A DNA stretch of 31,173 bases from the IMG/VR virus record IMGVR_UViG_3300006735_000008, positions 1-31,173 of that record; one strand, written 5' to 3'. Of the stretch, positions 695 through 19,039 are shown in pieces. How positions within the stretch are numbered: position 1 is the first letter of the stretch; each line of letters begins with the position of its first letter. The notes under the pieces are model-generated. The model saw only the letters and a list, made by a program, of their open reading frames with translations, ran no database searches and had not been told where the DNA came from. Position numbers and translations under genes: made by a program. Source of the DNA: a virus.

Positions 695-1861
695 TTAAAT
701 TACATAATACTTACCACTGTGCGTTGTCATAAGTTTATTCAAACAAACATATCTAACAGCGTCACAACTGTGGTTATGGGAGTCAATCGGTTTATTTAGC
801 AACTGACCGTTTTTGTCTGTAGACCACTTGTAATGTGTAAACTCTTTGATTGTGTTATCACTGTTCTTTGTTATGTGTATCTTGTATCGTCTCATTATAT
901 CAATCCCCATTTTAACACTGTCTGTTCCCTTCTTGGCGGGTTTGATATTGAATCCTTGTCTGTATATCTCCTCAATGCTTTTTGGCTCAGCGCTGTCACC
1001 TATTATTTCTGTTTGTCTTGTGATATTTAAGTCTCTTAACCTTTGACAAATATCTTGATTTGTTAGTCTTTTTTCATAAACAATTTCGTTCAAATACAAA
1101 TTGTTATCATATTTGAATACCTCTACCACTGCGGTTGGGTCGTTTGTAAATCCAAAATCCATTCCAATTCCCACAAGAGTTGCTTTTTCATTTACAGTGT
1201 TAATTAATTGAAAGTTTCTAAAAATTGTTTCAACGGCTAATCCTATCTCACCAAGACCGTACACTGTCCAATAATTGTCGTCAAGGTCTTTAAGTCTTTC
1301 AATCTCATTTATAGTTTCTTGTGGTAAAAAAGGATTGTCTAAATATGTTGATTTTATGAAGGTTGAATCATCTCTTGGAATTACTTTGTCATATATCCAA
1401 GAATATGGGTCAGAAGGATTGTAGTCAAGAAAAATGCGCTCAGTGGTCCTTAGTATTAACTGTTGGAAGTCTTCCCAATTAAATTCATTTGACTCATTAC
1501 ACCACAGATAGTTTCTTTTACGTCCTCTAATCTTCTGTGGTTGGTCAACACTGATGAATTCAAATTCGTTTCCGTTCAGATGATATGTCAAGTCAGATTT
1601 ATTGTGATGTTCAGGATTGTACAAATCAAGTTCCTCTAGTATATGAAACACGTCTTTGTATGCTGTTGCCTTCAAGGCAGGAAGCGTTTTTCTGCATATT
1701 GTGAAGACCTTACCTGTTGTTTGTAAAGCTAACACAATAAATAGTTGAGCAAGAGAATATGTTTTTGACGACCTAGTACCCCCCTGATTGACGACTATTC
1801 TACTTGTGGTGTCATAGTTTCTCTTGAAAACATTAGTTGTCTGTAGGTCTAGTCTTCTCAA
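695..1861 (-). CDS. terL: Terminase large subunit
   Basis: This is the packaging motor ATPase and headful nuclease, 388 aa. The N-terminal ATPase has a Walker A-like GGTRSSKT at residues 27-34 and a Walker B-like YLWCNESNE around 118-126, with E123 as the probable catalytic acid. The C-terminal RNase H-like nuclease shows its acidic triad as D235 (GIGMDFGFTND), D289 (IIGDSAEP) and D367 (SHNHSCDAVRY). The frame is closed by a TAA immediately upstream of TTG at 1861, and no ATG precedes the Walker A motif, so TTG is the likely start. It overlaps the small subunit by 29 bases, which suggests coupled translation. Length and motif order fit the Terminase_3/Terminase_6C type of tailed phages. Confidence 0.95.
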   Translation of the reverse strand: MRRLDLQTTNVFKRNYDTTSRIVVNQGGTRSSKTYSLAQLFIVLALQTTGKVFTICRKTLPALKATAYKDVFHILEELDLYNPEHHNKSDLTYHLNGNEFEFISVDQPQKIRGRKRNYLWCNESNEFNWEDFQQLILRTTERIFLDYNPSDPYSWIYDKVIPRDDSTFIKSTYLDNPFLPQETINEIERLKDLDDNYWTVYGLGEIGLAVETIFRNFQLINTVNEKATLVGIGMDFGFTNDPTAVVEVFKYDNNLYLNEIVYEKRLTNQDICQRLRDLNITRQTEIIGDSAEPKSIEEIYRQGFNIKPAKKGTDSVKMGIDIMRRYKIHITKNSDNTIKEFTHYKWSTDKNGQLLNKPIDSHNHSCDAVRYVCLNKLMTTHSGKYYVI

Positions 1862-2213
1862 TTACGTTAATTTTGATTTCACTTATTTGTTCACTGTTAG
1901 ATTTTAAATCAATTTCTTGTCTCTCCACATATCCTCTTTGTTTCCCTTTAGTCTTGAGATAAAATATGATTGACGTTTCTTTGTTGTTTTTTATGTTGTC
2001 TAACAGTTTTGATTCCACATAATCAAATTGTACATTTTGTAATTCATCAACACTGTTCTTAAAATCTTCATCTGTTTTAATCCAATCGTAATATGTGGTA
2101 CGACCTATTCCTGAGATTCTACAAGCTGTTGATACTACACATAAAGTCTTTTCAAGAGCTTCAAGCATAGCCTTCTTTTTTATGTGTTCGGATTTGTTCG
2201 GTTGTTTTGTCAT
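1833..2213 (-). CDS. terS: Terminase small subunit
   Basis: This 126-aa DNA-binding subunit recognises the packaging site and hands DNA to the large subunit. Residues 14-55 form a helix-turn-helix typical of phage small terminases (TACRISGIGRTTYYDWIKTDEDF). A helical oligomerisation segment follows (YVESKLLDNIKNNKETSIIF), then the characteristic FYLKTKGKQRGYVER stretch near 84-98. The start ATG overlaps the stop of the upstream dioxygenase gene by four bases, and the 3' end overlaps the large subunit, the usual small-then-large order. The assignment is based on this motif pattern and the position next to terL. Confidence 0.92.
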   Translation of the reverse strand: MTKQPNKSEHIKKKAMLEALEKTLCVVSTACRISGIGRTTYYDWIKTDEDFKNSVDELQNVQFDYVESKLLDNIKNNKETSIIFYLKTKGKQRGYVERQEIDLKSNSEQISEIKINVIEKTRPTDN

Positions 2214-3025
2214 AATCTTTTGTGTTCTCGTTGTTTTTTCAATTCTCTGATTCGTAGCAATTCGTCATCTACTGTTTCGCATTTCCACATTTGTTCCAGT
2301 GTATAATATACTATTGTGTATCTGTAACCTTTTGCGTGTGTTTTTATTATTGGTGTAACTCCGTGTATAATTTGTTGACCGTCAAATATCAAAAGATAAT
2401 CGTTGTCAATTTCAAATTTAAGATTATATTCAGGACATACCAAACGTCCTCCTGTTATACCGTTCTTAAAACACAGCATATTGCTTAAAACACCTTTAAA
2501 ATTGCCTTTGTCTGTATGATATCTTAGCTGATTATTTTGGTTTATTATTCCTGATGTAAAAGGCGTATCTGTTATTGTCCAATCTTTTTTCACCTTCTCT
2601 TTCACTATTTTGTAATGTTCTTTTAGTATATGTGGAAAGTATTCTTGATAGTAATTTGTTAGAGTTTTGCCGAAGTTTGTTATGATACTGTGTTGTTTGG
2701 GATAATCTCTTGCTGTTGTTACAGTGTTACAATAATCTTGTCTCAGCACTCGTCTTGGCATAAATCCGAACAGCTTTGATTTGCCTAGTTGTTTCATATA
2801 TGATGTACGGTTTGATTTAGCGTATTTCATAGAACGGACCGCCCAGTGTACGTCTTCTGTGTTCTCTTTTATCTTTTTGTATAAAATTATAGGTTGCCCA
2901 TTGTAATTTACAAGAGTATCTTCATTGATTAATCTTGTGGAGTCCTTTTCTGTGGCGAATTTCTTTTTGTATTCTTTTATATCAAGGATTTTATAATCTT
3001 TGTCTGTTAAATTAATTGTATTCAT
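2210..3025 (-). CDS. 2-oxoglutarate/Fe(II)-dependent dioxygenase, TET/JBP-like
   Basis: This 271-aa protein has a double-stranded beta-helix dioxygenase core. The iron ligands are visible as H170-x-D172 (RYHTDKGNFKG) and H221 (IIHGVTPI), with R235 (GYRYTIVYYT) as the likely 2-oxoglutarate anchor. A GGRLVCPEY turn and a DYLLIFDGQ strand lie between them. The HxD, GG.L, LLIFDG, HGV.PI, RY order resembles the TET/JBP family, which oxidises the methyl group of thymine or 5-methylcytosine in DNA. I infer that it hydroxylates a pyrimidine base in the phage DNA, most simply thymine to 5-hydroxymethyluracil, because no cytosine methyltransferase is seen in the window. The roughly 160 N-terminal residues are basic and may contact DNA. 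It overlaps both the amino acid:DNA transferase-like gene upstream and terS downstream. Dioxygenase fold is confident; substrate is inference. Confidence 0.75.
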   Translation of the reverse strand: MNTINLTDKDYKILDIKEYKKKFATEKDSTRLINEDTLVNYNGQPIILYKKIKENTEDVHWAVRSMKYAKSNRTSYMKQLGKSKLFGFMPRRVLRQDYCNTVTTARDYPKQHSIITNFGKTLTNYYQEYFPHILKEHYKIVKEKVKKDWTITDTPFTSGIINQNNQLRYHTDKGNFKGVLSNMLCFKNGITGGRLVCPEYNLKFEIDNDYLLIFDGQQIIHGVTPIIKTHAKGYRYTIVYYTLEQMWKCETVDDELLRIRELKKQREHKRL

Positions 3026-3866
3026 ATAGGTATTTATTTTGAAAGGTTTCCGCGCGAAAATCCCATAACACAGACCAATCTACTCCTTTTATGTGTTTGT
3101 AATGTTCTATCTCTTTGCCTAGTCTATCAATGTAATATCCCACATATCTTTTGCCTAGTCTATATTTTTTGTAAGCGCACAGTGTAGTTTCTATTTGAAA
3201 TATATCTCCTTGATGTTTTGTTTTTATGCTGAGGAATTCTCTCTGTAATGTGTTAATCTCTTTTTTTGTTAGTTTCTTTTTACTGTGGTGATTCATTAGG
3301 TCTGTTCTTCCAATGGCGTAAGCTAAACCGTTGCGACAAGATTTTGCCTGTGATAAATCAAGGGTGTGAGGTTCGCATTTTAGGTTTGTTATTCGGTTCA
3401 AAGTATCTAAGTAGTTAAATAGTGAAAATCTGCCAAAATAAGCAATTTTAAGAGCCTTTTGGTATGTTAGTTGATAGTTGTATTGCTTATCGTCTTTTAT
3501 CCCGTTAAAGAACAAATTTTGTTGGTTATTTTGCACTAACTGTTTATAACTGATGAAGCTCTTTACAAACTGATTATTGCTCTTGATTCTTAATCTGTCT
3601 GTCTGAAATTTTAAATGTGGTCTATTGTTTGTCCACCAATTTTGTAATCTGTGTAAATCTACGTTTTGATAATCAGGGAATTCATTGTACATAAAAAATA
3701 CTGTTGGAGCACAGTAACAGGTCCCGTACAAAAAAGCAATCCAATATCTCTGTTCCATATTTAGCTCAAATCTGTTAGCTATATAATCTAAACAGATGAT
3801 TGATGGGTCCACGTCCCTAGCTTTCATCATATCGTTATGGTATTCAGTGTAGGATTTAATACTCAT
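3012..3866 (-). CDS. Probable amino acid:DNA transferase / thymine pyrophosphorylase-family protein
   Basis: This 284-aa all-helical protein contains an aromatic-rich core with QRYWIAFLYGTCYCAPT (residues 39-55), NEFPDY (61-66), a W-W-N-NRP segment (77-83), KFQTDRLR (86-93) and SFISYKQLVQNNQQ (103-116). From memory this pattern resembles the phage families predicted to swap activated 5-hydroxymethyluracil for an amino acid or polyamine (amino acid:DNA transferases and alpha-glutamyl/putrescinyl-thymine pyrophosphorylases). The context supports that: a TET/JBP-like dioxygenase is encoded directly downstream and a glutamine amidotransferase directly upstream, all with overlapping ends. The role in base hypermodification is an inference. 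A remote DNA glycosylase-like fold is possible. I cannot identify catalytic residues with certainty. Confidence 0.55.
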   Translation of the reverse strand: MSIKSYTEYHNDMMKARDVDPSIICLDYIANRFELNMEQRYWIAFLYGTCYCAPTVFFMYNEFPDYQNVDLHRLQNWWTNNRPHLKFQTDRLRIKSNNQFVKSFISYKQLVQNNQQNLFFNGIKDDKQYNYQLTYQKALKIAYFGRFSLFNYLDTLNRITNLKCEPHTLDLSQAKSCRNGLAYAIGRTDLMNHHSKKKLTKKEINTLQREFLSIKTKHQGDIFQIETTLCAYKKYRLGKRYVGYYIDRLGKEIEHYKHIKGVDWSVLWDFRAETFQNKYLYEYN

Positions 3867-4449
3867 ATCTTTTCAGTGGTTCTAATTCTTCACAGTCCTT
3901 TATTCCTGACCTAGCAAATATGTCTCTTGTGGAAGCTATGTAAGTACAATTATTGTGTTTTGTTTGATAGGCAGGACGGTTTTCATTCCTTATTGCGCAC
4001 AATCTGTTATTTTCAATATATACACAAGCAAAGGAATAGTCCTTGTGATTTAATATGTTATCATCATATAATTTTTGTATCAAAACATATCCGTCATTTT
4101 CGTTGGGTATTTTGACCTCAAACTCACTTTCCATACCGATTGTTGACTTCATAGACAAAACGCCATTAAACGCCAAATTAATTGCCTTAAATTGTAAAGG
4201 CTGGTTGTTATTTAAGTCTTTATAGTCTCCACTTGTAGAATATCGGCAGTGTCCTATTAACAGTGTTGTATCAATGTTTTTAATTTTATTAATCATCTTT
4301 TGTAGGCTATGTGTTTTGTAAGTCTCTATATTTCCCTTGTGTAAATATGATATACCAAAACAGTGTAGTCCTCTTATTTTTGACTGATAAAATATGTCTG
4401 ATAAAAGTTTGTTGTCAATATGTCCAATAGCTCCAATGATAGAACACAT
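3856..4449 (-). CDS. Stand-alone class II glutamine amidotransferase (Ntn hydrolase)
   Basis: This 197-aa protein begins MCSIIGAIG, which exposes the N-terminal nucleophile Cys2 after methionine removal. The glutaminase signature follows in order: GHCRYSTSG (residues 66-74, with R69 contacting glutamine), NNQPL (81-85) and FNGVL (94-98, N95 and G96 forming the oxyanion hole). The domain has the usual size of a GATase2 and there is no synthase domain. It should hydrolyse glutamine and pass ammonia to a partner. The neighbours suggest that the partner belongs to a DNA base modification pathway, not purine or glucosamine synthesis. The start codon overlaps the ParB stop as TAATG and the 3' end overlaps the next gene by 11 bases. 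The catalytic assignment is strong; the acceptor is unknown. Confidence 0.85.
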   Translation of the reverse strand: MCSIIGAIGHIDNKLLSDIFYQSKIRGLHCFGISYLHKGNIETYKTHSLQKMINKIKNIDTTLLIGHCRYSTSGDYKDLNNNQPLQFKAINLAFNGVLSMKSTIGMESEFEVKIPNENDGYVLIQKLYDDNILNHKDYSFACVYIENNRLCAIRNENRPAYQTKHNNCTYIASTRDIFARSGIKDCEELEPLKRYEY

Positions 4450-5060
4450 TACAATCCAACACCGTTACTTTCGTGTTTCACTGATTGTTGTAAGTAAAAA
4501 TCTATACAGTGTTTTATTACTGATGAATTATCGTCTGTTTCAATTTCTTTCGCCACAATATCTAGTTTCGCTAACATCTCTGGGTATTCTTCACTGTCGT
4601 AATACAAAACAATCTGTTTTATTTCGTTTTCAAGATATGTGTCAAGCTCCTCTTTTAAATCGTTTTCTTCAACATCAGGCTCGTCACCAATAGCTAGTTC
4701 CCAATTTTCAAATCCCCACTGTATTAATTCTTCAGTGTCAAACACGTTTGCTAACATATCAAAATCAAACTGTCCAGTGTTTTTATTTAACCTAACATTG
4801 AGCTCACGTTCTCTGTTAATGTCTAAATCAACCTCAACACAGGGGACCTCTTTATATCCCAAATCCTTAGCAACTCTGACTCTTTGGTGCCCTCCTACAA
4901 TAATGTTTTTACGTTCCTTGTTTACGTTCACAATAATTGGGTCTACAAGACCGAAAGTTTGTATTGATGTTTTAAGCTGTTCATATTGATTTTTTTTCAA
5001 CATTCTCGGATTGTAGTCCGCCATTATCAGTGTACTAATTTTTTTATTGATTATTTTCAT
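4449..5060 (-). CDS. ParB/Srx-like nuclease-fold DNA-binding protein
   Basis: This 203-aa protein has the N-terminal ParB/sulfiredoxin domain: YNPRM (residues 16-20), the helix with TFGLVDPIIVN (35-45) and GGHQRVRVAKDLGYKEVPC (56-74), where the GGHQR box binds nucleotide. The C-terminal half is acidic (DEPDVEENDLKEELDTYLEN) and lacks the chromosome-partition HTH module. Phage proteins of this shape are commonly encoded in DNA-modification gene clusters beside methyltransferases or other base-modifying enzymes. Here it leads a tightly coupled run of four genes ending at terS. A role in recognising or processing DNA for modification is inference; plasmid-type partitioning is unlikely because no ParA is present. 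Confidence 0.8.
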   Translation of the reverse strand: MKIINKKISTLIMADYNPRMLKKNQYEQLKTSIQTFGLVDPIIVNVNKERKNIIVGGHQRVRVAKDLGYKEVPCVEVDLDINRERELNVRLNKNTGQFDFDMLANVFDTEELIQWGFENWELAIGDEPDVEENDLKEELDTYLENEIKQIVLYYDSEEYPEMLAKLDIVAKEIETDDNSSVIKHCIDFYLQQSVKHESNGVGL

Positions 5061-7212: not shown

Positions 7213-7989
7213 TTACTGTGTTCTTTTTTTTCTCCATACCTGTCCTGCTGTTGGCGTATATACTGACTCCCAACCAATGCTTTTCAAGTGTTTATAGTAT
7301 TTGGTTTTTTCGTCTTCGTTCGGTAGCCTTCTACAAAATTCTCTGTCATAATACTCAGGATATTTGTTTTTACCACCTCCTGAACCATTAAAATTGTTCC
7401 GCGCCCACCTTCCTAATCTCAGTGACGTGTTCCACGTTTTTTGCATTTCAAATCTCATTTTTGTACCACTGGGATTCTTTTCACTCCAATACTCTATAAA
7501 CTCATCAAAATGGTCTTTATACTCCACATATTTTTTTACATCAGTTTTAAAAATTTCAAATCTAGTCTCTATATTAGAGATTTTATTTAAGTTGTTTTTA
7601 TTGTTATTCTTATTAATAGTTTTCGACTTTTTGAAATCTTGTTTCATAAAATCCTGCAAACTTGTTTTTAAAATTTTCTCAACTTGTTTTGCGTAAATCT
7701 TGTAATGAGTTTTAGCGGGTATACCTTTGACTTTTGTTTTGCAAATTTTACCACGTTTTAGCACTTCTAAGGCACTTTTACAACGATGATTGGTCAATCC
7801 TGTATTGACGCGAATATCGTTTGCCGTCTGCCAAAAAAAGCCATTATTTTCATTTATCAGATTATGTTCCTCACAATACAGATGTAGCTGTAATAAATGA
7901 GATAATAACACTGAAGCGTCTGTTCCAAGTTTCCTGATTAACTCTTTGTTGACAATCAAATAATGACTTGTGGTTAGTATATTATTCAT
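7213..7989 (-). CDS. Replisome organiser / DnaD-like replication protein
   Basis: This 258-aa protein has an N-terminal winged-helix region (residues about 10-95: LGTDASVLLSHLLQLHLYCEE, FFWQTANDIRVNTGLTNHRCKSALEVLKRGKICKTKVKG). A low-complexity Asn/Lys linker (about 120-140) follows. The C-terminal helical segment (FDEFIEYWSEKNPSGTKMRFEMQKTWNTSLRLGRWARNNF) resembles helicase-loading domains of phage replisome organisers. It should bind the origin and recruit the host helicase. I chose ATG at 7989, which overlaps the upstream stop by eight bases. The frame stays open to 8034, but the extra residues (MKVYRVMTES) lie inside the upstream gene. Confidence 0.7.
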   Translation of the reverse strand: MNNILTTSHYLIVNKELIRKLGTDASVLLSHLLQLHLYCEEHNLINENNGFFWQTANDIRVNTGLTNHRCKSALEVLKRGKICKTKVKGIPAKTHYKIYAKQVEKILKTSLQDFMKQDFKKSKTINKNNNKNNLNKISNIETRFEIFKTDVKKYVEYKDHFDEFIEYWSEKNPSGTKMRFEMQKTWNTSLRLGRWARNNFNGSGGGKNKYPEYYDREFCRRLPNEDEKTKYYKHLKSIGWESVYTPTAGQVWRKKRTQ

Positions 7990-8515
7990 ATTCTTCATCA
8001 TATAACTTTCTGTCATCACTCGGTAAACCTTCAACCATACTTTGCAACAATTCAGGATAATTTAGCAAAATATCTCTTTCATCAGAATCTAATACATCAA
8101 GGTCCTCAAGGTCGCTCATAACCTCAGACAATTCACTGTAGTCGTATCTTATGTGGTCAATCTCTCTAACATCAATATCGTTGATGTAAAATTCTTCACA
8201 CACATATTCCAAATCAACAGAGGTATCAATATATATGTGTCCGCATTCAAAATCTCCATCAACCAAACAATCGTTTATTTTCTCCTGTAATCCTTCCGCA
8301 TATTTGAAAACGCTTTCAGTGATACAATCGTATAACTTCCAATCTCCACCATAATGTATGAAAAGTTCGTAACCGTCTGCTGATGATTCCTCTATAAATA
8401 TATGATGATAAGCTCCATTTTTATATGACAACGCTGTGTCAGAATTAAAATCAAAGGCAATATCCTTCTCAAGCTCAACCAACTGTATATATGATTCAAT
8501 TTTTTCTCGTTTCAT
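7982..8515 (-). CDS. Very acidic protein, possible DNA mimic
   Basis: Of 177 residues about 48 are Asp or Glu and only about 15 are Lys or Arg, spread over the whole length with aromatic residues between them. I do not recognise the family. Such composition is known in DNA-mimic proteins that block restriction enzymes or nucleoid proteins. A gene for an ArdC-like antirestriction protein lies 1.8 kb upstream in the same operon. The start codon follows hammerhead ribozyme 1 by 25 bases and is preceded by an ACACAG block. DNA mimicry is inference from charge only. Confidence 0.6.
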   Translation of the reverse strand: MKREKIESYIQLVELEKDIAFDFNSDTALSYKNGAYHHIFIEESSADGYELFIHYGGDWKLYDCITESVFKYAEGLQEKINDCLVDGDFECGHIYIDTSVDLEYVCEEFYINDIDVREIDHIRYDYSELSEVMSDLEDLDVLDSDERDILLNYPELLQSMVEGLPSDDRKLYDEEYE

Positions 8516-8534
8516 TTCTGTGTTTTTTAAGTTA

Positions 8535-8587
8535 AATACTGACCGCCATTTCAGGCGGTTTCGGTCTTATGACCTCATCAGAGTATT
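8535..8587 (-). ncRNA. Hammerhead ribozyme 1 (type I)
   Basis: On the minus strand the conserved core is complete. Stem I 5' strand AATACT (8587-8582) is followed by CTGATGA (8581-8575). Stem II is GGTC-ATAA-GACC (8574-8563), then GAAA (8562-8559). Stem III is CCGCC-TGAAAT-GGCGG (8558-8543), then T (8542) and the cleavable C (8541). Stem I 3' strand AGTATT (8540-8535) pairs perfectly with the 5' strand. Cleavage is predicted between 8541 and 8540. The TAA stop of the upstream SSB-like gene (8588-8586) overlaps stem I, and cleavage leaves a 25-nt leader on the acidic-protein gene. Confidence 0.93.
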
Positions 8588-9017
8588 AAAATGGTAACGG
8601 TTTGCTGTTATCAGATATTTGTTTGGTAAATACCCACTGTTCAAATCTTTCAGCTCTTTGCATAATAGCTTGTTCGTCACTTGACTTTCCTTCAGCAATA
8701 GCTAAATCAACAGCGCATTTTAAAACACACTGTCTAACAATGAATTTTTGAGTATCATCATTATTACCGCTGTAAGAATAACTTGATTTTGAACCGTTAA
8801 AATCAGAGCCTTCTCTGAAAACTTTGAATGTTCCTTTATCACTTATTGTGTAAGCAACTTGGTCTCCCACTGATAAATAAGGATTGTCTCCTGTTTTATA
8901 CATTGTTCCACCGTCTCCGTTCTCCATTGATACTTCAAATACATACATTTTTTTACCGCCAAACTCTGTCGGTTCCATTGGTCTAACTTCTGTGACCGTT
9001 GATGAATCTTTTTTCAT
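8586..9017 (-). CDS. OB-fold single-stranded DNA-binding-like protein
   Basis: This 143-aa protein has an N-terminal beta-rich segment (residues 10-65: EFGGKKMYVFEVSMENGD, VGDQVAYTISDKGTFKVFRE) consistent with an OB fold and a Ser/Gly/Tyr-rich linker. A helical part (FIVRQCVLKCAVDLAIAEG) precedes an end of DNSKPLPF, which resembles the PF tip of bacterial SSB that recruits replication enzymes. It lies in the replication region, immediately followed by hammerhead 1 whose stem I contains its stop codon. The SSB role is inferred from fold pattern and tail. Confidence 0.6.
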   Translation of the reverse strand: MKKDSSTVTEVRPMEPTEFGGKKMYVFEVSMENGDGGTMYKTGDNPYLSVGDQVAYTISDKGTFKVFREGSDFNGSKSSYSYSGNNDDTQKFIVRQCVLKCAVDLAIAEGKSSDEQAIMQRAERFEQWVFTKQISDNSKPLPF

Positions 9018-9022
9018 ACTTT

Positions 9023-9262
9023 TTATAATTTTTTAGTTAATAAGATGTCAGTAATTTCTGTGTTTAGAATGGCGCTGACCTTCACCATTTCTGTCAGTGT
9101 AAAATCTTGTGGACTTTCTAACTTAGTTTTCAGTGTAGGATATGTAACACCTAGTTTTTCTGCAAAATCTTTCAGTGTTATTTTATTTTCCAATCTGTTT
9201 AAAATCAAATAGTCTTTCAATTCTTGTCCCGTTTTTATTCTGTAATTTTTTTCAATAAACAT
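9023..9262 (-). CDS. Small XRE/Cro-like helix-turn-helix regulator
   Basis: In this 79-aa protein residues 28-70 form a Cro/C1-type helix-turn-helix (ITLKDFAEKLGVTYPTLKTK, then FTLTEMVKVSAILNTEITDIL). The short length suggests a DNA-binding domain without effector domain, as in phage Cro-like or early repressors. It is the first gene after the 121-base intergenic region that carries two inverted copies of a GTGCCTTA-type element, so it may bind there and regulate its own transcription. That link is inference. Confidence 0.8.
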   Translation of the reverse strand: MFIEKNYRIKTGQELKDYLILNRLENKITLKDFAEKLGVTYPTLKTKLESPQDFTLTEMVKVSAILNTEITDILLTKKL

Positions 9263-9383
9263 AATATAATTTTTTTAATTAAAATCTTGCGATTTAAGGC
9301 ACTCAACCCACTCTAGCATATAATTTAACACGATATAACAATAAAATAGCTTAGAATTGATATTTTGTGCCTTATTTCGCATT
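9263..9383. promoter_or_regulatory. Control region with inverted pair of GTGCCTTA elements
   Basis: The region has no gene. CTTGCGATTTAAGGCAC (9286-9302) and GTGCCTTATTTCGCATT (9367-9383) form an inverted pair 64 bases apart. Related words occur at 19111-19127 (CTTGCAAAATAAGGCGC) and near 11887-11898 (CTTAAATCGCAA), also intergenic. CTTAGAATTG at 9351-9360 resembles CTTAAAATTG at about 11908-11917 and 19195-19204. Such repetition confined to control regions suggests operators for a phage regulator, for example the adjacent HTH protein. No clear TAnnTTTG box is present. Confidence 0.5.
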
Positions 9384-9824
9384 TTACTTCTTAGATTCGT
9401 ATTGGCTCAAAGCCTCTTTTACATCGTAGCTCCTTGCTCCAATGTACGAATTGTAATTTCCATTGAATATGTGATTATCAATAGCTTTGTGGTCGTGTCT
9501 GTGTTCTCCTCCCTTTTGACCAAATACAGACTCCATCATAAAATCATCATCAGAAAATAATTTTTTTATCTTAGCTAACTGATTGTCATTCCACTTAATG
9601 CTGTATTTAGCAACCTGTGTTGTTGTTTGAAATCTGTTAGGGACCTCTATCATATCTGTGTTAATATCAAAACCGTCTTTGCGTAATTCAAAAACTGTTG
9701 CCGATATTCTTGTGTTGCCTAAATCCTGTATTGCTTCAAGACTTGTGATAGAATTGAATTTATATAAGTATTCAATAAGTCTTGTGTAATGAGTGTATTT
9801 TCTTCTGTTAACTTGAGTTTTCAT
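9384..9824 (-). CDS. Helix-turn-helix domain protein (HTH_39-like)
   Basis: In this 146-aa protein residues about 10-75 read YTRLIEYLYKFNSITSLEAI, DLGNTRISATVFELRKDGFD and VPNRFQTTT, the pattern of the phage HTH_39 winged-helix family. The C-terminal half is polar and unassigned (GGEHRHDHKAIDNHIFN). The frame is open to 9854, but the only earlier start is a TTG buried in stem III of hammerhead 2. ATG 9822-9824, 25 bases after the predicted cleavage site, is the real start. Probable transcription or replication regulator. Confidence 0.75.
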   Translation of the reverse strand: MKTQVNRRKYTHYTRLIEYLYKFNSITSLEAIQDLGNTRISATVFELRKDGFDINTDMIEVPNRFQTTTQVAKYSIKWNDNQLAKIKKLFSDDDFMMESVFGQKGGEHRHDHKAIDNHIFNGNYNSYIGARSYDVKEALSQYESKK

Positions 9825-9843
9825 ATAATTTATTTGTTGATTA

Positions 9844-9899
9844 ATAACAGACAAGGGACCTTGTCCCCTGTTTCGTCCTTATGGACTCGTCAGTGTTAT
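9844..9899 (-). ncRNA. Hammerhead ribozyme 2 (type I)
   Basis: Minus-strand elements in order: stem I 5' ATAACA (9899-9894), CTGACGA (9893-9887), stem II GTCC-ATAA-GGAC (9886-9875), GAAA (9874-9871), stem III CAGGGGA-CAAGG-TCCCTTG (9870-9852, one G-U pair), T (9851), cleavable C (9850), and stem I 3' TGTTAT (9849-9844), fully complementary to the 5' strand. Core position 7 is C, which the CUGANGA consensus allows. The TAA stop of the upstream gene (9898-9896) is inside stem I. Confidence 0.92.
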
Positions 9900-10261
9900 G
9901 CCCAATTATTTTCTCCGTATCTTTTCACAATTTCTTCATCATATATCGTAGATTTTCCATTTTTTTCAATATCATTTCTGATAACGTCCTCCCACCAACG
10001 GATTCCTAATGTCATACGCTTAACTGAAAAACTTGGTATATCATCATTGTGAACATAAAAAAACAAATCTTGCCTGTTTTCTCCATTGTCTAATGTTATT
10101 TTTGTGATAATTACAGATTCAAATTCAATCCTTGCTCCCGTTTCTAGCTTGAAAAAGTCTCTTAATTTGTCTGATGATTGCCCACCTAAATTGACGCCTT
10201 CCCAAACACATAATTGTCTGTAATCGTTTTCTAACTTGTGTACTATTTTCTTGTTTTTCAT
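9896..10261 (-). CDS. Hypothetical protein, 121 aa
   Basis: I do not recognise this family. The protein contains CVWEGVNLGGQSSDKLRDFF, a segment with paired beta strands (ARIEFESVIITKITLDN, QDLFFYVHNDD) and a conserved-looking RWWEDVIRNDIEKNG near the end. The frame extends to 10297, into hammerhead 3, but ATG 10259-10261 lies 26 bases after the predicted cleavage site behind TTTACACAG and is the better start. It sits between two ribozymes, so its mRNA should be released as a single-gene unit. Confidence 0.65.
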   Translation of the reverse strand: MKNKKIVHKLENDYRQLCVWEGVNLGGQSSDKLRDFFKLETGARIEFESVIITKITLDNGENRQDLFFYVHNDDIPSFSVKRMTLGIRWWEDVIRNDIEKNGKSTIYDEEIVKRYGENNWA

Positions 10262-10281: not shown

Positions 10282-10357
10282 GTAACAGACCGCCCACTTA
10301 AAATATGACTTATTAACCTGTGGACGGTTTCGCCTATAAAAGGCTCATCAGTGTTAC
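10282..10357 (-). ncRNA. Hammerhead ribozyme 3 (type I, long stem III loop)
   Basis: Minus-strand elements: stem I 5' GTAACA (10357-10352), CTGATGA (10351-10345), stem II GCCT-TTTAT-AGGC (10344-10332), GAAA (10331-10328), stem III CCGTCCAC/GTGGGCGG (10327-10320 and 10297-10290, eight pairs with one G-U) closed by a 22-base A/T-rich loop. Then come T (10289), cleavable C (10288) and stem I 3' TGTTAC (10287-10282), which pairs perfectly. The ArdC stop codon TAA (10356-10354) is within stem I. Confidence 0.92.
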
Positions 10358-11349
10358 TTATTCAATATAAATTCAACCGCTTTCTGTGATTGTTGAGACG
10401 CAAAAAACACTTCTTTTTCATTATCCTTCTTTTTTAAATGTGTTATCCAACCGTTAATGTACGCCTGTGAATTTGTCATATCGTCTTTTGGCTCTAAACC
10501 TAAAACACCACATAAAAACAACGAACCTAATTCAGCAACAAGCTCCTCTTTGGCATACTCCTGTTTTTTCTTTGAAGGAGAATTTACAGTGGCTTTCATT
10601 AAAGATTCTCTGTTTAGTATTGATTCGTGTCCTGTACTGTGTATCATTTCGTGAAACAGTGTTTTATAGTAATCGTCAGACCTTCCTGTTTTATCAGTAA
10701 AATTTTCTTTGTTAGGCATCTGAATATGGTGGCTGTTTACTTTGTAAAACGCTCCTGTTCCACCGTGTTTCAGTGTAGGTTTTTTAGGCATATTTGCGTA
10801 AACCGATTCTGCGTCAGTGATAGGTTCAAAAATTGTATCTTTTACAGCTTCATCTTTAATCTCTTGTGGTAAATAATCTATTCCCTCTGTTTGAGACAAA
10901 TTATATACAGTGTAATATCTCTGAGACCATACAGCATTAACACCTTTAGTCTTTTTGTTTACACCTGATGGCAAAGATTTTTCATTGGGGTACCACTTGT
11001 CTTTGTAGAAATAAGAACACAAGGAATATATGACAGGAAATCCTTCTGCGTCTTCGTTCAGTGTACCACCAATCTCTTTGATTTTTTTATATGTGATAAA
11101 CTCAGGAGTGTTAAAATTGTTTGTCCACATAGCTATCTGCATTAACCAATAGTTAATTCCTGTGTAAATCTTTTTAGAATCATAACTAATAGCGGGGATA
11201 TCAGGTGACATTCCGTGTTTTGTACTCCAAGGACGAACCCAATTCAAGCCTTCCTTCTCCAATCCTTTCACAATATTGTCTGTTATTATTTCGTGAATTG
11301 ATTTACCTGTTTTTTTTCTTGGTGTCCATTTAAATTTTTTAGTTTTCAT
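10354..11349 (-). CDS. ArdC-like antirestriction protein (ssDNA-binding N-domain plus zincin)
   Basis: This 331-aa protein has the two-part ArdC layout. The N-terminal domain (about 15-155: IHEIITDNIVKGLEKEGLNWVRPW, YTGINYWLMQIA, FITYKKIKEIGG, YTVYNLSQTEG) matches the ssDNA-binding half. The C-terminal metalloprotease-like domain carries HEMIHSTGH (residues 233-241, the zinc-binding HExxH) and YAKEELVAELGS (265-276, third ligand). ArdC-type proteins shield entering DNA from type I/II restriction. It is flanked by hammerheads 4 and 3. Its leader AAAACTTAATTTAACACAG is the best match to the 5' end of the plus-strand short RNA at 11748-11816. Confidence 0.85.
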   Translation of the reverse strand: MKTKKFKWTPRKKTGKSIHEIITDNIVKGLEKEGLNWVRPWSTKHGMSPDIPAISYDSKKIYTGINYWLMQIAMWTNNFNTPEFITYKKIKEIGGTLNEDAEGFPVIYSLCSYFYKDKWYPNEKSLPSGVNKKTKGVNAVWSQRYYTVYNLSQTEGIDYLPQEIKDEAVKDTIFEPITDAESVYANMPKKPTLKHGGTGAFYKVNSHHIQMPNKENFTDKTGRSDDYYKTLFHEMIHSTGHESILNRESLMKATVNSPSKKKQEYAKEELVAELGSLFLCGVLGLEPKDDMTNSQAYINGWITHLKKKDNEKEVFFASQQSQKAVEFILNK

Positions 11350-18428: not shown

Positions 18429-18576
18429 TGTTTTTAGTTTTTTTAGTTACTTTTTCAAAAAAGACAGACTTCCAAACATCTGGCATTCCTTCTAAAACGC
18501 TTTGTGGTAATTCACATAACGGTTTATTGTAATGTGGTGGAATCTTGTTTTCATATTCTTTTTTAATTTTTATCAT
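18406..18576 (-). CDS. Small protein, 56 aa
   Basis: The frame from ATG 18574-18576 to TGA 18406-18408 encodes MIKIKKEYENKIPPHYNKPL, then CELPQSVLEGMPDVWKSVFF and a basic end. It fills the 134-base space between the kinase and the 166-aa gene, overlapping both by 14 and 23 bases. Function unknown; the pattern looks like a compact helical adaptor or assembly peptide. Confidence 0.6.
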   Translation of the reverse strand: MIKIKKEYENKIPPHYNKPLCELPQSVLEGMPDVWKSVFFEKVTKKTKNSDNDISS

Positions 18577-19039
18577 CACATAGTTGTTTTAAATAAGTTA
18601 AACATTCTTCACTGTTATTAAATTCTTTGTCAAATTTATATTTTTTTACTCTTGTATCTATTCTTTTTATGTGTTGCTCCGACTGTTTGCTGTTTCTTTT
18701 TTCGCGTCCTAGTCTTCCGTCACCATTTATTTTTAACACTGTTGGCTTAAAAATATCAAAAAACTTCTGATTCATAAACCTATCTCCTTCACATATAATG
18801 GTATATTTTTTATTCACTGTAAATAGGTTAAATTCTTGAAAATCTTTAGCAATAGCCATTGACAGCTTGTCTGAGCCTTCAAACATTGAACCGTCATATT
18901 TGCCTAAAATCATTGTTGTTCCGTCTTCCATATACCGAAACAAACCTAATTTACACTGTTGAAACTTGCCTTGTTCAATGATTTTCTTCATTACCCAAGT
19001 TTTTCCAACTCCACACGAACCTATTATTTGATAAACCAT
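18563..19039 (-). CDS. P-loop kinase, possible 5-hydroxymethyluracil-DNA kinase
   Basis: This 158-aa protein has Walker A GSCGVGKT (residues 7-14), then MILGKYDGSMFEGSDKLSMA (43-62), CEGDRFMNQKFFDIF (83-97) and a basic C-terminal helix with KRNSKQSEQHIKRIDTRVKK. The GKYD, GSDKLS and EGDR boxes remind me of the phage kinases that phosphorylate 5-hydroxymethyluracil in DNA ahead of amino acid transfer. That would complete the pathway started by the dioxygenase at 2210-3025. The kinase is encoded far from that cluster, behind its own promoter and terminator. A nucleotide kinase is the alternative. P-loop kinase is confident; substrate is inference. Confidence 0.7.
   Translation of the reverse strand: MVYQIIGSCGVGKTWVMKKIIEQGKFQQCKLGLFRYMEDGTTMILGKYDGSMFEGSDKLSMAIAKDFQEFNLFTVNKKYTIICEGDRFMNQKFFDIFKPTVLKINGDGRLGREKRNSKQSEQHIKRIDTRVKKYKFDKEFNNSEECLTYLKQLCDDKN

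Follow-up and report, generated by a model that had tools for sequence, protein, structure and literature searches.

A phage gene cassette predicted to aminate thymine in DNA with nitrogen from glutamine

Gene content of the cassette

IMG/VR virus record IMGVR_UViG_3300006735_000008, a linear sequence of 31,173 bp and unknown completeness that is analysed here over its whole length and called the window, carries a gene cassette predicted to hypermodify thymine in phage DNA. The cassette lies on the minus strand in the order ParB, glutamine amidotransferase (GATase), amino-acid:DNA transferase (ADDT) and TET/JBP dioxygenase, and runs directly into the small (TerS) and large (TerL) terminase subunits. 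All of these open reading frames (ORFs) are open, and consecutive genes overlap by 1 bp (ParB/GATase), 11 bp (GATase/ADDT), 14 bp (ADDT/TET) and 4 bp (TET/TerS). A fifth part, a P-loop kinase, lies elsewhere in the window. The features are as follows.

4449-5060, minus strand: ParB-like protein, 203 aa, the first cassette gene (PF02195 1.9e-10, above cut-off)
3856-4449, minus strand: stand-alone class II (N-terminal nucleophile, Ntn) glutamine amidotransferase, 197 aa, a predicted glutaminase (phrog_4736 9.5e-14)
3012-3866, minus strand: ADDT-family protein, 284 aa (PF18724 9.8e-20, above cut-off)
2210-3025, minus strand: TET/JBP Fe(II)/2-oxoglutarate dioxygenase, 271 aa (PF12851 2.1e-10, above cut-off)
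18563-19039, minus strand: P-loop kinase, 158 aa, displaced from the cassette, a predicted kinase of 5-hydroxymethyluracil (5hmU) in DNA (phrog_800 1e-6)
1833-2213, minus strand: TerS, a landmark outside the chemistry (phrog_4102 9.9e-7, phrog_309 1.9e-6)
695-1861, minus strand: TerL, a landmark (PF04466 2.7e-28, PF17288 4.6e-23)

An initial annotation of this DNA had described four overlapping genes that run into terminase genes, and the ORFs, their order and their overlaps bear this out. Its family calls were also right: a ParB-like protein, a stand-alone class II GATase with an intact Cys2, a relative of amino acid:DNA transferases at 3012-3866, and a TET/JBP-like dioxygenase with the HxD...H...R residues. 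It had named assignment of 3012-3866 to an unrelated family as a result that would speak against it; the profile search places that gene in PF18724, and the predicted fold of its product agrees. The kinase was overlooked, so that no activating enzyme was named.

A stand-alone amidotransferase tied to the ADDT protein

The GATase belongs to a divergent subfamily. Its match to Pfam GATase_6 (1.5e-4, 22.2 bits) falls under the curated cut-off of 27, which the relative in L065 passes (L numbers denote the related loci or contigs compared), and it matches NCBIfam purF at 8.5e-10. Searched against structures, the family profile finds PurF (8w7d, 1.7e-8) and GlmS (1.3e-7). The catalytic and glutamine-site residues C2, which follows the initiator Met, R26, H67, R69, N95, G96 and D119 are invariant in all 42 distinct homologues. 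The 197-residue window protein consists of the GATase domain alone, with no fused acceptor or synthetase domain of the kind present in PurF, GlmS and AsnB.

The pairing of GATase with ADDT holds in both search directions. Among 50 viral contigs from a GATase-seeded scan, ADDT adjoins GATase in 46, and the four without it stop 0, 0, 705 and 2809 bp beyond the GATase. Viral contigs scanned with one ADDT sequence alone gave nothing; an alignment query did find relatives. More than 550 matched in the ADDT-seeded scan, and in the 80 top-scoring loci, which partly re-sample the earlier contigs, GATase is present in 80, kinase in 77, TET in 76, ParB in 71 and GNAT in 39. One locus that seemed to lack the GATase, L023, proved to be an artefact of longest-ORF picking, the gene being intact in another frame. 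The GATase and ADDT genes usually overlap by 4-13 bp or have one gene inserted between them, and their pairwise distances correlate more strongly than those of any other gene pair (r=0.89). The GATases form 22 clusters at 70% identity. Because gene order and pairing recur across many divergent contigs, the cassette arrangement is not due to chance.

A GATase that is a mere neighbour, belonging to a separate pathway, might be argued from the phiEco32-type phages, which have GATases of about 27% identity with no such cassette noted. The two-way linkage with ADDT led us to reject this explanation; the conserved overlaps of 4-13 bp and the divergence correlated with that of ADDT also speak against it, and it is the least probable of the alternatives considered here. 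As judged from sequence comparison, the GATase is a conserved partner within the system and no passenger. On the 168-kb contig L065, an amidoligase-like gene (8677-9558; PF12224, weak) separates GATase from ADDT, which suggests that the base may be extended further there.

The ADDT-family protein and its likely substrate

The ADDT protein scores 71.7 bits against PF18724, where the cut-off is 26.2, and its AlphaFold (AF2) model has a pLDDT of 94. Foldseek comparison of the model with the PDB gave only three convincing matches, all to entries 8z2m/8z2n, the glycinyltransferase (PUGT) of phage PaMx11 that acts on 5-phosphomethyl-deoxyuridine (5-PmdU); for 8z2n the probability is 1.00, the TM score 0.63 and the E-value 7.8e-4. 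The ADDT family profile independently recovers the PaMx11 glycinyltransferase entry, together with 25qc, at E-values of about 0.001-0.002 through the motif ETxLCxxK. Because both fold and profile match the PaMx11 enzyme, 5-PmdU, which the kinase is expected to make, is the likely substrate of the window protein as well.

The nucleophile that we favour is ammonia, which the GATase would release from glutamine. Its main rival is that the ADDT protein keeps to amino-acid transfer, joining glycine, glutamate, glutamine or some other amino acid to 5-PmdU, and that the GATase-fold protein, acting later or alongside, is either an Ntn amidase that trims or deamidates the adduct or an amidotransferase that amidates its carboxylate. 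In its favour, the one ADDT homologue for which there is both a structure and a named activity transfers glycine, and members of the Pfam family as a rule make amino-acid adducts; no acceptor domain is fused to the GATase, and the amidoligase-like gene of L065 would fit such chemistry. However, the GATase retains the glutamine-binding and catalytic residues of the PurF/GlmS type, and a carboxylate-activating ligase is missing from most loci. The GNAT at 22 of 57 loci would be expected to require a free amine, and in one lineage a module of glycine transferase and flavin enzyme occupies the same slot. An amino-acid adduct is thus unlikely, though it has to be taken seriously, and transfer of ammonia is preferred.

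The dioxygenase, the kinase and ParB

The window TET reaches 40.5 bits against PF12851 (cut-off 34.9), its HxD residues (H170, D172), H221 and R235 do not vary among the 16 sequences compared, and the family profile matches TET2 at 3e-8. Its predicted step is the oxidation of thymine to 5hmU in DNA. The phrog_6059 label "queuine tRNA-ribosyltransferase" sits on such TET/JBP dioxygenases, including window 2210-3025, and has spread to many phage annotations.

Some phage TETs oxidise 5-methylcytosine, and a cytosine pathway would have the TET act on that base and the later steps on 5-hydroxymethylcytosine. The TETs closest to that of the window (50-54% identity; L002-L006) adjoin glycosyltransferases named for TET association (PF20691), and one GATase record, G014, has a match to PF00145, both of which could be read in this sense. 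Against it, a search for C5-cytosine methylases was negative for the window, 13 of 14 GATase records, L002-L006, Heath, Nigel, Tonitrus and MementoMori, and the fold match of the ADDT protein acts on a deoxyuridine. For these two reasons thymine is favoured as the substrate base, even if some of the records may be incomplete, and a cytosine pathway is quite improbable.

The window kinase shares 48% identity over 154 aa with the kinase of L020, which there lies between ADDT and TET, and is about equally close to the cassette kinases of L022 and L049. It carries a Walker A motif and the motifs FEGSDKLSM/CEGDR, in a P-loop fold like that of nucleoside monophosphate kinases. Its family, phrog_800, is also that of Tonitrus gp7 (1.7e-23), which in addition matches PF18751 at 3.6e-50. 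The likeness to the kinases of L020, L022 and L049 therefore provides a good candidate enzyme for the supposed activation step. "Terminase small subunit" labels on phrog_800, on Heath gp4 (PF18751, 3.9e-74) and on the PaMx11 kinase, gp49, in fact denote P-loop kinases of hypermodification clusters; the loci concerned are L007:2863-3465, L009:3234-3764 and L075:14218-14787.

The distance of 14 kb between kinase and cassette, and the fact that the nearest kin of the window TET and kinase differ from those of the window ADDT, would be accounted for if the cassette had decayed, its displaced kinase and borrowed TET no longer cooperating. Yet the ORFs are all intact, catalytic residues are kept and the overlapping starts are preserved, and we rate decay as a shade less probable even than a cytosine pathway.

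ParB is present in 76 of 80 loci with the window type of TET, and probably helps to load or position the enzymes on DNA. ParB-domain proteins accompany other phage base-modification genes as well (PMC12783734).

A proposed route to 5-aminomethyl-2'-deoxyuridine

The reading that best joins these genes, and that we consider reasonably probable, is a post-replicative hypermodification of thymine that passes through 5hmU and 5-phosphomethyluracil to 5-aminomethyluracil, with nitrogen from glutamine. The TET/JBP enzyme would convert thymine in phage DNA to 5hmU by hydroxylating its methyl group, and this 5hmU the P-loop kinase (18563-19039) would phosphorylate to 5-PmdU. The ADDT protein would then bind 5-PmdU in DNA and displace its phosphate with ammonia that the GATase hydrolyses from glutamine and passes on, so that the pair would form a split amidotransferase chemically like PurF. 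The predicted product in the window phage is 5-aminomethyl-2'-deoxyuridine (5-NmdU), and in relatives with a GNAT the amine would probably be N-acetylated. Protection from restriction is the presumed benefit. The initial annotation had guessed at oxidation, activation and substitution with nitrogen from glutamine, a route with which the gene associations are consistent, and the base that it left unnamed can now be given a name as a prediction.

Several observations weigh against this route. The characterised ADDT relative uses glycine, not ammonia, and the assignment of the PaMx11 product is based on the title of a cited paper and on PDB titles. A GATase-ADDT fusion was sought across the loci and none was found. 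On the 44-kb record L050 a kinase-GATase-ADDT cluster (7507-10217) occurs with neither TET nor thymidylate synthase in the record. The window kinase is encoded 14 kb away from the cassette, amid virion genes, which sets it apart from nearly all relatives, and it fails to reach the PF18751 cut-off, so that the window has no match to that profile; its assignment therefore rests on orthology to the cassette kinases. Gene absences in the window are provisional, since the linear record may be incomplete.

Viewed more broadly, the gene pair may represent a split, PurF-like amidotransferase acting on DNA, which would place glutamine-derived ammonia straight onto activated thymine and so open a second route to 5-aminomethyl-deoxyuridine beside that of glycine and a flavin enzyme. 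On this view the pair occurs in hundreds of phage contigs, as a module that trades places with glycosyltransferase or glycine-flavin modules in a shared TET frame. We put this wider proposal at slightly better than even.

Clusters of TET, ADDT and kinase adjoining terminases are already known from the isolates Heath and Tonitrus (PMC11955845). No paper describing a glutamine amidotransferase in such a system was found in a partial coverage of the literature, and so no claim of priority is made for a gene set that is widespread and apparently undescribed. If the proposal is correct, phages possess a glutamine-dependent amination of thymine in DNA, which would widen the known routes of thymidine hypermodification and give a predicted disguise against bacterial DNA-cutting defences; the enzyme pair could also serve to introduce reactive amines into DNA. 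The modules that tailor the base (glycosyl transfer; kinase alone; kinase with glycine/flavin; kinase with GATase/ADDT) appear to be swapped on a shared ParB-TET frame, which helps to predict the modified base of uncultured phages from gene content and explains several database mislabels.

Setting and probable host

TerS is the neighbouring gene in L006 and L015 as it is in the window. Bacteroides, Parabacteroides and Flavobacterium phages have terminases similar to that of the window, and contigs of a Phocaeicola metagenome-assembled genome contain two relatives of the cassette, which makes a host among the Bacteroidota probable. A search for distant DNA similarity between the cassette and isolate phages gave no match, and Rfam, tRNA and PADLOC scans returned only a likeness of ParB to the ParB part of methyltransferases. 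An ArdC-like anti-restriction protein (PF08401 and PF18818), encoded at window 10354-11349, is likely to be a second counter-defence factor.

Comparison with known systems and exchange of modules

The TET and glycosyltransferase cassettes (L002-L006) share with the window a ParB-x-TET-TerS-TerL layout, but in them the glycosyltransferase occupies the slot of GATase and ADDT. A glycosyltransferase is present in about 72 of the 80 loci closest to the window TET; no match to TAGT or GTx hidden Markov models was found in the window. Identity to the window TET is only about 26-34% in other GATase cassettes, and the GATase-ADDT pair is found with at least three TET lineages. In another lineage (L164-L166; L164:1879-4808), ParB, kinase and TET flank a PUGT-like ADDT and a FAD oxidoreductase that scores 26.9 bits against PF01266, just under the cut-off of 27.9; the kinase and TET there are 47% and 49% identical to those of the window. 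Among the loci examined, the ParB-kinase-TET frame holds either the glycine-flavin or the GATase-ADDT module and never both together. As the L164-L166 frame matches that of the window with the other module in place, the two modules appear, by this comparison, to be interchangeable. L156, L162 and L168 have ParB, kinase and TET with no transferase nearby, and their end product could be 5-phosphomethyl-deoxyuridine itself.

The clusters of Mycobacterium phage Heath and Rhodococcus phage Tonitrus resemble the window in having ParB, TET, an ADDT-family protein and a P-loop kinase near the terminase, but they have no GATase, their ADDT is about 19-25% identical to that of the window and their kinase lies inside the cluster. 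The Tonitrus cluster has been described as one of thymidine hypermodification (PMC11955845). The 5-NeOmdU pathway of the Ackermannviridae (ViI/SFP10) shares the ADDT (PF18724); there, however, a gene of the thymidylate synthase family is the likely source of 5-hydroxymethyl-deoxyuridine, the kinase is HMUD2, and no TET or GATase was found beside the ADDT. The CmoX/CmoY 5-carboxymethylcytosine systems share the association with ParB, and one ligase cluster among them is predicted to use glutamine-derived ammonia, but they differ in their cytosine base, carboxyl handle and asparagine-synthetase-like ligase (PMC12783734). A system of this type was rejected for the window, where no C5-methylase was found.

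PaMx11, with its N-alpha-GlyT / 5-NmdU pathway, offers the closest comparison for the chemistry. According to the title of a 2024 paper cited in PMC11946847, glycinyl-thymine is linked with 5-NmdU biosynthesis, and the PDB titles name the glycinyltransferase; from this we infer that 5-NmdU arises there by action of the FAD enzyme on the glycine adduct. The gp46-gp51 operon encodes a transferase (PF18724), a FAD-dependent enzyme (PF01266), a GNAT, the kinase, a kinase helical domain (PF18723) and a thymidylate synthase homologue. With PaMx11 as positive control, 14 GATase-bearing records, the window included, were tested for the FAD enzyme (PF01266) and for thymidylate synthase (PF00303), and neither was found in any of the 14; PaMx11 was positive for both. 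TET is present in 13 of the 14. The GNAT at 22 of the 57 GATase loci is homologous to PaMx11 gp48, so that many relatives of the window share this gene with PaMx11, but a search of the window itself found none. The window and PaMx11 thus have in common the ADDT family and fold, the kinase family and the predicted amine end product, and differ in that the window has a TET for the thymidylate synthase homologue, a GATase, no flavin enzyme, and ParB. The simplest reading of these gene contents is that TET stands in for the synthase as the source of 5hmU, and that GATase and ADDT would stand in for glycine transfer and flavin cleavage to reach the same amine, which some relatives would acetylate.

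The mechanistic analogy is with PurF, in which a class II GATase feeds ammonia that displaces a phosphate leaving group. The proposed system would differ from PurF in that its GATase is a separate protein, its acceptor enzyme is unrelated and its substrate would be a base in DNA.

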